A stretch of 64,000 bases of DNA from Thermotoga sp. Mc24 (GTDB lineage Bacteria; Thermotogota; Thermotogae; Thermotogales; Thermotogaceae), in NCBI RefSeq assembly GCF_000784835.1, contig NZ_JSFH01000004.1, positions 124,001-188,000 of the forward strand, written 5' to 3'. Positions 16,493 through 20,174 of the stretch are shown one piece after another; position 1 is the first letter of the stretch, and every line of letters begins with the position of its first letter. The notes beneath the pieces were generated by a model. That model was not told where the DNA came from. It did not search any database and saw only the letters and a list, made by a program, of their open reading frames with translations. The position numbers were made by a program, and so were the translations under genes.

Positions 16493-16527
16493 CTGGTTTG
16501 AACACCATATCATGGAGGGGTGATAAT

Positions 16528-18399
16528 GTGAAAACGGCTGTTCTCGACAGATTCGTGTTTTCTGACGAAGTTAAGGATGTCATAGAAAACGCCCCCGAGA
16601 TAATAATACCAGGGAGCAGGAAAGAAATACTCGATCTTGCCATAGCCGGTAGAGACCTTTTCGAGGTAGGTTACGAGGTTCCCGGCAAAGGGTTCGTGGT
16701 CGAGGCGACGGTTACCCGCTGTAAAAATGGTCTGGTGGTCAATTATTCTGAACCATACATGAGGCGAAGAGATCCAAATGCGCTCGTAGTCGGCGACGAT
16801 CTAGAAACAGACAAACCACGTTTCAAAGAGAGATTCGGAAAAGATTTCGAACCTGTTCGACAGGAAACTTTTGAGTGGTTGAAAAAACAGGAGTTAATCC
16901 TGTTACCTTTCATGGCCGGTGGATACGATTACGGTTATCCTGCCGTTCTTATAGCCCCAAAGAACGCCGGGTTCTTCGTCGGCGGTCTCGCCGATCTACA
17001 GTTCTTTGTACCAGCCAGTGAAGTTCCCGAGAATTTCAAACCCAAGCTCTACTTGTTCTTGGCCCCGCCATTCAGGCACACACACTTCGACGGTAAACAG
17101 GTAGTCGTTCACTACAGACACAACTCTCACTATGAGATTTTTTCCTACAATCTCTATCCTGGGCCCAGCGCCAAGAAAGGAGTTTATGGATTTCTCCTTC
17201 ATGTTGGCGAAAAAGAAAAATGGATTACCGCCCACGCATCTGCGGTGAAAGTCATCACTCCCTACGAAAATGAACTCGTGATCATGCACGAAGGGGCAAG
17301 CGGTGGGGGAAAAAGTGAAATCCTCGAAGAGATACACAGAGAACCGGATGGGAGGATAAAGTTCGCCGAAAACATCGTAACCGGTGAAAAACTCTACATG
17401 GAGCTGAAACAATCCTGTGTTCTCATGCCTGTAGCCGATGATATGTTTCTATGTCATCCAAATCTCCAGACGGGAAAGAAACTCGTTGCTAAAGATGCAG
17501 AAGCTGGATGGTTTATAAGGGTTGACCACATAACAGAATACGGAAGCGCTCCAGATCTTGAAAGGTTGACCATACATCCGCCTGAACCGCTCATATTCCT
17601 CAACATCTATGCTGTTCCAAACTCAACCGCATTGATCTGGGAACACATCGAGGACGAACCAGGAAAACCGTGTCCAAACCCGCGCGTCATAATACCGAAA
17701 CGTTTTATGAAAAACGCGATTTCTGAACCTGTGAAAGTGGACGTGAGAAGCTTTGGAGTGAGAACACCCCCCTGCACGAAAGAGAAGCCAACGTATGGAA
17801 TCGTTGGGTTGATGCAGATTTTGCCCCCTGCACTGGCATGGCTTTGGAGACTGGTAGCACCAAGAGGACACGCAAACCCAAGTATAGTCAGCACCAAAGG
17901 CATGACCAGCGAAGGAGTGGGATCCTTCTGGCCCTTCTCTTCTGGAAAAATGGTGAGACTCGCCAACATCCTTCTTGAACAGATTATAGACACACCGGAG
18001 ACAAGATACATACTTGTACCAAATCAATACATCGGTGCTTACAGGGTAGGATTCATGCCGGAGTGGCTCGCAAGAGAATATCTCTCAAGGAGAGGCGGTG
18101 TCAGGTTCAGGCCAGATCAACTCGTCCCATCGAAATGTTCACTCCTCGGTTTTTCTCTCAAAGAGATGAAGATTGAAGGAAACACCATTCCAAAGGAACT
18201 CTTACAACCGAATCTCCAGCCTGAAGTAGGTGAAGAAGCCTACGAGAAAGGTGCTCAAGACTTGAAAGACTTCTTCAAGAGAGAACTGAAGAAATTCCTA
18301 ACCGAGGATCTGAATCCCGTAGGAAGGGAAATCATTCAGTGTTGCCTCGACGATGGATCTCTCAATGACTATCTCAAGATCATACCGATGAATTTTTAA
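16528..18399 (+). CDS. DUF4914 protein with HPr-kinase/PEPCK-like P-loop
   Basis: 623-residue cytoplasmic protein of a family with no assigned function (DUF4914). A P-loop GASGGGKSE lies at residues 256-264. It is preceded by ITAHASAVKV and a beta strand VIMHE. This HASAV...GxSGxGKSE arrangement is the pattern of HPr kinase/phosphorylase and related PEPCK-fold kinases. A following PVADDMF supplies acidic residues. The C-terminal half has conserved-looking PPALAWLWRLVAPRGHANPS and EGVGSFWPFSSGKMVRLAN. The GTG start follows GGAGGGG. Substrate unknown; nucleotide binding is likely, kinase activity is inference. Confidence 0.75.
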   Translation: MKTAVLDRFVFSDEVKDVIENAPEIIIPGSRKEILDLAIAGRDLFEVGYEVPGKGFVVEATVTRCKNGLVVNYSEPYMRRRDPNALVVGDDLETDKPRFKERFGKDFEPVRQETFEWLKKQELILLPFMAGGYDYGYPAVLIAPKNAGFFVGGLADLQFFVPASEVPENFKPKLYLFLAPPFRHTHFDGKQVVVHYRHNSHYEIFSYNLYPGPSAKKGVYGFLLHVGEKEKWITAHASAVKVITPYENELVIMHEGASGGGKSEILEEIHREPDGRIKFAENIVTGEKLYMELKQSCVLMPVADDMFLCHPNLQTGKKLVAKDAEAGWFIRVDHITEYGSAPDLERLTIHPPEPLIFLNIYAVPNSTALIWEHIEDEPGKPCPNPRVIIPKRFMKNAISEPVKVDVRSFGVRTPPCTKEKPTYGIVGLMQILPPALAWLWRLVAPRGHANPSIVSTKGMTSEGVGSFWPFSSGKMVRLANILLEQIIDTPETRYILVPNQYIGAYRVGFMPEWLAREYLSRRGGVRFRPDQLVPSKCSLLGFSLKEMKIEGNTIPKELLQPNLQPEVGEEAYEKGAQDLKDFFKRELKKFLTEDLNPVGREIIQCCLDDGSLNDYLKIIPMNF

Positions 18400-18424
18400 A
18401 GCGGGGAGGATTCCCCGCCTTTTT
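18398..18424. terminator. Terminator after the DUF4914 gene
   Basis: Stem GCGGGGA / TCCCCGC (18401-18418) with a 4-base loop, followed by a short T run on the plus strand. A-rich sequence on the other side could let it also serve the convergent LUD gene. Confidence 0.8.
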
Positions 18425-19070
18425 AAAGTCCGAAGTCTTCCAGTGTCAGAATCACTTTGAACCTTCCCGGCTGTCTCACCCCGGATTCCACTACCAGAAA
18501 GTAGTTACAGATCCTCTGGGGAGAGGTACAATCCGCGCAGAATCCCGTTTTTGTACACGGTGTTTCCAAATTCAATCTTCTTGAATTCATAGGAGAGATG
18601 TATCTCAGTCTTTCTCGCACTTCTTCTACGTCTTTCACCACCTTGTTCACACTCGCTATCACAACCACGTTTTTTGGTCCAAAAACAACGGCGGCCACTC
18701 TGTTACCGTTCCCATCGAGAAAGACCAATTTTCCATCTTCCGTTATGGTATTCGCGCTGGTGAAGTAATAGTCGGCCCAGAAACTCTTTCTGTATATCTC
18801 CTCCACTTCCTCCCTCGTTTTGGCAGCCGCCCTGTCAAGGAAGTTGTACCTGCCACTGCGCAAAAGTTCAATAACACCCGTGTCTGCGAGGGTGAGGGAA
18901 CCACCAGCCGATACGGTTGCACCCTCCGGGATAAGCTCTTTCACCTTTTCAAGAACCTCTCCACGATCACGAACAATCCACACTTCGTGTTTTTTCTTCC
19001 TTAAGTTGTTAGCTACGTGCTCTGCAAGTTTTTCCTTTTTCCAAAGCCATAGTTCATCTCTCAAACTCAT
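18423..19070 (-). CDS. LUD-domain protein (LutC/YkgG type)
   Basis: 215-residue protein of the LUD family (formerly DUF162), seen in lactate-utilisation proteins LutB/LutC. Typical segments are VSAGGSLTLADTGVIELLRSG, RAAAKTREEVEE, and DYYFTSANTITEDGKLVFLDGNGNRVA. Two short cysteine clusters near the end (ETPCTKTGFCADCTSPQRIC) could hold an iron-sulfur cluster or metal. It stands alone, without lutA/lutB neighbours, so lactate metabolism is not established. AAAGGAGGT precedes the ATG. A -10-like TATAAA occurs at 19104-19109 on the minus strand. It forms the left border of the replication origin. Confidence 0.85.
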   Translation of the reverse strand: MSLRDELWLWKKEKLAEHVANNLRKKKHEVWIVRDRGEVLEKVKELIPEGATVSAGGSLTLADTGVIELLRSGRYNFLDRAAAKTREEVEEIYRKSFWADYYFTSANTITEDGKLVFLDGNGNRVAAVVFGPKNVVVIASVNKVVKDVEEVRERLRYISPMNSRRLNLETPCTKTGFCADCTSPQRICNYFLVVESGVRQPGRFKVILTLEDFGL

Positions 19071-19446
19071 AACTCTATACCTCCTTTTGTCGAATTTGTG
19101 TAATTTATAGAGAAAATCTTATTAACTGAAACTAAAATGGTAGGTTTAGTGGTAGGTTTTGTATACATTTCGTGGTATCTGATTTTTAAAGATACACTAT
19201 ATATTGTATTAAATTAACAAATAATCGCATAGAATCGAATATATGCAAAGCAAACCTACCACCAGACTCTGTATCGACCATTTGAGGCTAATTTCAGAGT
19301 GGTAGGTTTCTGAATCTCTCATCAATAGACTACTTTAGTCTTTACAAATAATATTATCGTTCAGATCTGAGATTCTACAACGTGCTTCTAATGAGCGTTA
19401 CAGAAAACCTACCACCTAAAATCCAGTATCCAAGCTGATTTCAGAG

Positions 19447-19494
19447 AAACCTACCACTTACCTACCACTTACCTACCACCCGGGTGGTAAGTTG
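19447..19494. repeat. Tandem DnaA-box cluster with terminal inverted box
   Basis: Three plus-strand boxes start at 19447, 19458 and 19469, exactly 11 bases apart. An oppositely oriented box follows at 19483-19494. The last two face each other across CCGG, giving an inverted repeat of about 26 bases. The 11-base step places successive boxes on the same helix face. Confidence 0.85.
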
Positions 19495-19566
19495 CAGACA
19501 TCATTAAAAGTCTCATCAAAAGCTTATTCAAAAATTTCAATCCTTGAAACCTACCACCTGTGTACC

Positions 19567-19592
19567 TTATTATTTACTACTACTAATAATAG
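19567..19592. other. DnaA-trio-like unwinding element
   Basis: Eight bases after the perfect DnaA box at 19547-19558 comes an A/T-rich triplet run (TTATTATT, then TACTACTACTAATAATAG at 19575-19592). Read on the complementary strand it is a series of 3'-GAT/AAT-5' triplets. That is the strand-binding 'DnaA-trio' arrangement described next to DnaA boxes in other bacterial origins. It is the best candidate for where the duplex first opens. Confidence 0.65.
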
Positions 19593-19601
19593 CAGTATAA
19601 T
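19573..19601 (+). promoter_or_regulatory. yceD-rpmF promoter overlapping the origin's unwinding element
   Basis: -35 TTTACT (19573-19578), 17-base spacer, -10 TATAAT (19596-19601). It would start transcription near 19608, just ahead of the ribosome site AGAGGTGGT of yceD. The spacer consists of the triplet array. Confidence 0.6.
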
Positions 19602-19625
19602 TGATCTGAAAAGAGGTGGTAAAAA

Positions 19626-20174
19626 ATGAACTGGAAGGTAGAACTCTCGGAAATAGAAAAGAAGAAACGCTTTTTTTTGGAGGGCATTTTCGAAAAAGAC
19701 GGTATAGAACTCGATGTTGGTTTTTGCCGATTCCTAGAACCTGTTCGGGTAAAAATGGTCGTTGCAAAGACGAAAGATGGTTTCACCGTCGGTGGATATG
19801 TTCACACGGCAATAGAACATCCCTGTGCCAGATGTCTTGAACCCGCTCGTGTCGAAATAAGAGGAGTTATAGAAGCTCTCTATCTACCGGAAAGCATGAG
19901 GAAAAATGTAAAAGAAGAGAAACTTGAATCTTTGAAAAACATCGTATACTATCATGAAACGGAATTTGATCTGTCAGAAAGAATCATTGAAGCGATAGTG
20001 GTTGACATTCCAGAAAAAGTTCTGTGCAATCCAGACTGTAAAGGACTATGCCCTTACTGCGGTGCTAATCTGAATGAAGAGCCCGATCACAAATGTGATA
20101 AAATTCCTGTAGTCGATAGCAGATTCGAAATTCTTGCCGGGTTAAGAAATAAACTCAAAAACAGGGAGGTATAA
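19626..20174 (+). CDS. yceD: YceD family protein (DUF177), precedes rpmF
   Basis: 182-residue DUF177 protein; in most bacteria it sits directly upstream of ribosomal protein L32, as here. Family landmarks are HPCARCLEPARVEI and the C-terminal CNPDCKGLCPYCGANLNEE, with two Cys-x2-Cys pairs that may bind zinc. Plant and bacterial relatives are implicated in 23S rRNA accumulation; the role here is inferred. The ribosome site is GAGGTGGT 6 bases before the ATG. It opens the rightward operon that leads away from the origin. Confidence 0.88.
   Translation: MNWKVELSEIEKKKRFFLEGIFEKDGIELDVGFCRFLEPVRVKMVVAKTKDGFTVGGYVHTAIEHPCARCLEPARVEIRGVIEALYLPESMRKNVKEEKLESLKNIVYYHETEFDLSERIIEAIVVDIPEKVLCNPDCKGLCPYCGANLNEEPDHKCDKIPVVDSRFEILAGLRNKLKNREV

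Follow-up and report, generated by a model that had tools for sequence, protein, structure and literature searches.

A chromosomal replication origin of the Thermotoga maritima type, distant from dnaA, in Thermotoga sp. Mc24

The chromosomal origin of Thermotoga maritima (tma-oriC) was reportedly described by Ozaki in 2006. The minimal origin has been defined by experiment (Lu 2023), and its box is bound by the T. maritima DnaA protein (PMC10316083). Binding and unwinding by the cognate ATP-DnaA have been shown in vitro, with all five boxes of the minimal origin contributing to unwinding, box 1 the most, and with the TAG repeats being essential. The spacing between boxes 1 and 2 is phase-critical, as an insertion of 5 bp is harmful and one of 10 bp is not. 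Reversal of box 2 is tolerated, the reversed-box mutant being active in vitro; helicase loading was inferred rather than demonstrated in that work (PMC10316083). The locus presented here was found in Thermotoga sp. Mc24, within the 64,000-nucleotide stretch of DNA that was analysed (the window). It is a same-genus copy of this T. maritima-type origin and does not represent a novel class of system. We place at about 97% the probability that the gap at 19071–19625 contains the oriC of this Thermotoga chromosome, and infer that initiation takes place there in vivo. The locus adds a second, clean example to an origin type that is non-canonical yet understood from experiment. Its novelty is modest and lies in the comparison between species: the outer boxes are under selection, box 2 has flipped in nature, and another family carries the cassette elsewhere on the chromosome.

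The whole origin lies in the gene-free gap listed in Table 1, whose 555 bases between the LUD-domain gene and yceD agree exactly with the preliminary description; beyond yceD come rpmF, plsX and a gene for a SIS/glutamine-amidotransferase. The reader's 12-mer, AAACCTACCACC, is present in the gap in three perfect copies (19252, 19405 and 19547), three copies with one mismatch (19148, 19298 and 19447), three with two mismatches (19136, 19469 and 19483) and one, found by reading the letters, with three (19458), a recount identical to the three perfect, three one-mismatch and four weaker copies first reported. Boxes were also scored with the published 9-mer core, ACCTACCAC, which gave eight exact and two one-mismatch matches, or 10 boxes. 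In 2,000 dinucleotide shuffles of the gap, matches with at most one mismatch averaged 0.118 (maximum 2) and exact 9-mers 0.005 (maximum 1). No second cluster was found when the 1.82-Mb genome was searched with the 11-mer core, which returned scattered single sites only; the one exact 11-mer away from the gap falls within a coding gene. The box had been described as unlike the usual DnaA box, and indeed neither TTATACACA nor TTATCCACA, the E. coli-type box, occurs in the gap with one mismatch or fewer. To the left, the LUD gene is adjoined by a gene for a 633-aa DUF4914 protein of unknown function (window 16498–18399), which also neighbours the LUD gene in the related genus represented by G010 (L170, 798–2669).

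Table 1. Features of the origin region; coordinates are those of the window, and the numbering of outer boxes 6 to 10 is introduced in this analysis.
Feature	Position	Strand	Remarks
LUD-domain gene	18423–19070	minus	left border of origin gap
Gene-free gap, whole origin inside	19071–19625	none	555 bases, LUD gene to yceD
Outer DnaA box 10	19137–19145	-	ACCTACCAT, one mismatch; kept in 7/7 congeners
Outer DnaA box 9	19149–19157	-	exact 9-mer; 12 bp from box 10
Outer DnaA box 8	19254–19262	+	exact 9-mer; 9/9 columns invariant
Outer DnaA box 7	19299–19307	-	exact 9-mer; 9/9 columns invariant
Outer DnaA box 6	19407–19415	+	exact 9-mer
Counterpart of T. maritima minimal oriC	19447–19594	+	148 bp here, published as 149 bp (PMC10316083)
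DnaA box 5, minimal origin	19449–19457	+	exact
DnaA box 4, minimal origin	19460–19468	+	exact; 11 bp from box 5
DnaA box 3, minimal origin	19471–19479	+	exact; 11 bp from box 4
DnaA box 2, minimal origin	19484–19492	-	ACTTACCAC, inverted; 4-bp gap to box 3
Spacer, boxes 2 to 1	19493–19548	none	56 bp; presumed HU-assisted bending site, by analogy with PMC10316083
DnaA box 1, minimal origin	19549–19557	+	exact; adjoins unwinding element
DnaA-trio module AAATAATA, unwinding element	19568–19575	-	sequence compared with PMC10316083
Promoter-like TTTACT-17-TATAAT for yceD-rpmF	19573–19601	+	consensus match only
eTrio, three TAG repeats, single-strand DnaA-binding module	19577–19585	-	identical to T. 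maritima; predicted here
TTATT-containing AT-rich module, unwinding element	19585–19591	-	sequence compared with PMC10316083
yceD	19626–20174	plus	right border of origin gap

The T. maritima minimal-oriC insert, as delimited by the published primers, was located in the same-genus genome G006, which matches every published T. maritima oligonucleotide sequence tested. The segment from 19447 to 19594 aligns to this insert without gaps, with boxes 1 to 5 and the TAG repeats identical, and the five boxes, the inverted box 2 and the spacings agree with both G006 and the published oligonucleotides. Read leftward from yceD, the order is TTATT module, three TAG repeats, trio, box 1, the 56-bp spacer and boxes 2 to 5; the trio lies on one side of the eTrio and the TTATT module on the other, all within 19568–19591. 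The preliminary description had pointed to a T. maritima origin with the same box, and the segment is the gap-free counterpart of that minimal oriC (PMC10316083). The right end given in that description, 19592, truncated the unwinding element, which extends to about 19594. The promoter-like site for yceD-rpmF, in which TATAAT is unchanged across seven species, overlaps the unwinding element, so that transcription of yceD-rpmF may begin beside or within the opening DNA.

The near-identity of the core to the T. maritima in vitro system suggests how this origin would work. ATP-DnaA would occupy boxes 1 to 5 and assemble a head-to-tail oligomer, and the DNA would bend between boxes 1 and 2, probably with HU, carrying the AT-rich unwinding element close to boxes 3 to 5. 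The duplex would then open at about 19568–19594, with DnaA holding the TAG-repeat strand so that the helicase can load.

Across seven Thermotoga species none of the 10 boxes changes its place or orientation, while the spacers between them drift. Invariant columns number 83 of 90 in the boxes versus 100 of 333 in the spacers (P=5e-28, seven species) and, for the five outer boxes alone, 40 of 45 versus 75 of 267 (P=7e-15), P values that overstate independence because several of the seven species are closely related; the more divergent Thermotoga species (61–70% overall identity) agree on box conservation. In six genomes (G001 to G006) the array is just upstream of plsX. Because outer boxes 6 to 10, which the minimal origin lacks, are kept while the spacers drift, we judge them from sequence comparison to be under selection. 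No description of their role was found in the open-access literature. Their conservation suggests that a second DnaA subcomplex, which would tune or strengthen initiation in vivo, probably assembles on them, facing away from the unwinding element. The comparison in this way distinguishes boxes required in vitro from boxes maintained in vivo. Between outer boxes 7 and 6 there is also an AT-rich conserved patch around TTTAGTCTTTACAAATAATATTATC (window 19333–19356), which could serve as an additional site of opening or be bound by a protein.

A switch in strand composition, as at a bacterial oriC, was found at the locus. The cumulative GC skew had been predicted to reach its minimum near 19.3 kb; within the window the minimum is base 19583, in the TAG repeats of the unwinding element, and on the 223-kb contig (4 kb of it unread) it is the 144-kb bin, the array being at 143.1–143.6 kb. 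The host genome is in 12 contigs, and skew was taken from the window's contig alone together with spaced samples of four related genomes. In G006, a single contig sampled at 20 points, the orthologous array was unbeaten by any other origin position with the terminus opposite, and dnaA as origin scored negative. Sampled skew is noisy, however: the optimum in G004 was 840–900 kb versus an array at 787 kb, off by roughly 55–115 kb. In G041 and G016 it brackets the array; dnaA, 88 kb away, is inseparable from the array there and outscores it when the terminus is fixed opposite. GC skew is patchy in this group, and the Thermotogae have little gene strand bias, that of T. maritima not being significant (PMC4070872); for these reasons skew is taken as support for the origin and not as proof. 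Given so little strand bias, the run of plus-direction genes to the right of the gap, earlier offered as a sign of the origin, is a weak argument.

The array was said to lie away from dnaA, and dnaA was found on another contig (C10), with no DnaA boxes in the 4.5 kb of that contig examined around it. In three single-contig Thermotoga genomes the short way round from dnaA (loci L164 and L167) to the array measures 787 kb (G006), about 787 kb (G004) and about 805 kb (G001), which puts dnaA towards the opposite side of the chromosome from the array. With dnaA near the expected terminus, its gene dosage would be low in growth, and anyone who locates the origin by dnaA will put it in the wrong place in this group. 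The DnaA recognition motif of E. coli is DHTTV; that of the host is the Thermotoga-type SHPVV, with SHPTV in a second family (f2), SHPAV or THPAV in the box-bearing genera seen in a third (f3), and HSSV or HSTV in several genera without the array. This pattern suggests that the DnaA motif and the box changed together, with a link between HPxV and the box that is not strict. Species with the box have HPVV, HPAV or HPTV, but a strict rule tying HPxV to the box, which was considered, is broken by genus f2g9, which has SHPTV and in which no array was found.

Many DnaA boxes distant from dnaA would also be expected if the true origin lay somewhere else and this locus served to titrate or reactivate DnaA (datA- or DARS-like), a role in which the outer boxes could conceivably act. 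We regard such a locus as very improbable, as this is the only box cluster of the genome, its unwinding element matches that of a working origin, and the GC skew turns at the array. The single cluster, the turn in skew and the gap-free match to the T. maritima minimal oriC instead uphold the original interpretation of the gap as a chromosomal origin. Still more remote is an operator of the LUD gene and the yceD-rpmF-plsX operon, its repeats bound by a transcription factor: the array does lie between divergent genes and the promoter-like site does overlap the unwinding element, but T. maritima DnaA binds this very box (PMC10316083), and in the second family the same array geometry adjoins a CBS-domain-like gene and glnA (named by sequence), so that the array does not follow the yceD-rpmF-plsX operon.

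Arrays of the origin type are present in other genera and families. In G010, of another genus in the same family, the array lies between the equivalent LUD gene and yceD, with core spacings as in Thermotoga and an inverted box 2 offset by one base. In five f2 genomes (G016, G030, G018, G014 and G024) the boxes are mostly [AT]YCTACCAC; boxes 3 to 5 are at an 11-bp pitch, box 1 is 77–78 bp from box 3, and box 6 is 44 bp from box 5. Box 2 of these f2 genomes has the direct orientation and a 3-bp gap, versus inverted with a 4-bp gap in Thermotoga, and in a sixth f2 genome, G034, the core is shortened. The direct box 2 mirrors in nature the published reversed-box mutant, which was active in vitro (PMC10316083), and allows the claim that this box functions either way round to be tested on natural origins. 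The neighbours of the f2 array differ from those in Thermotoga, the G016 array being beside a glnA-like gene rather than plsX. In f3 (for example G040 and G041), ACTTACCAC arrays are near purA-like and rimO-like genes. Most f2 origins also have three further boxes leftward, spaced by about 33 and 44 bp (L180, L181, L247, L249 and L252). An unguided search for 10-mers shared outside the boxes of 17 arrays returned TAG/TAC repeats as the top non-box motif, in 15 of 17 arrays versus 11 in three simple block shuffles. It seems reasonably probable that the Thermotogales oriC is a cassette of ~460 bp whose core geometry is kept in at least two families at differing sites, with inner-box spacing retained, box 2 flipped (inverted in f1, the Thermotoga family, and direct in f2), and outer boxes having a conserved in vivo function.

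Compared with known systems, the Mc24 origin shares with tma-oriC the box, the five-box minimal region with its inverted box 2 and 4-bp gap, the 11-bp pitch of boxes 3 to 5, the spacer length and the TAG/TTATT/trio unwinding element. It differs in belonging to another species, with about 92% identity across the aligned origin region, and differences in the minimal region are confined to the spacer and the flank of box 1. The f2 and f3 arrays (in f3, those of G040, G036 and others) have the same YYTACCAC-type boxes and TAC/TAG repeats but different chromosomal neighbours, and the f3 layout is unlike that of Thermotoga. With the E. coli and B. subtilis type of oriC the locus has in common DnaA boxes adjoining an AT-rich unwinding element and a single-strand recruitment mechanism; in contrast to these, the Thermotoga box is ACCTACCAC rather than TTATNCACA, the origin is located away from dnaA, and its core contains an inverted box.
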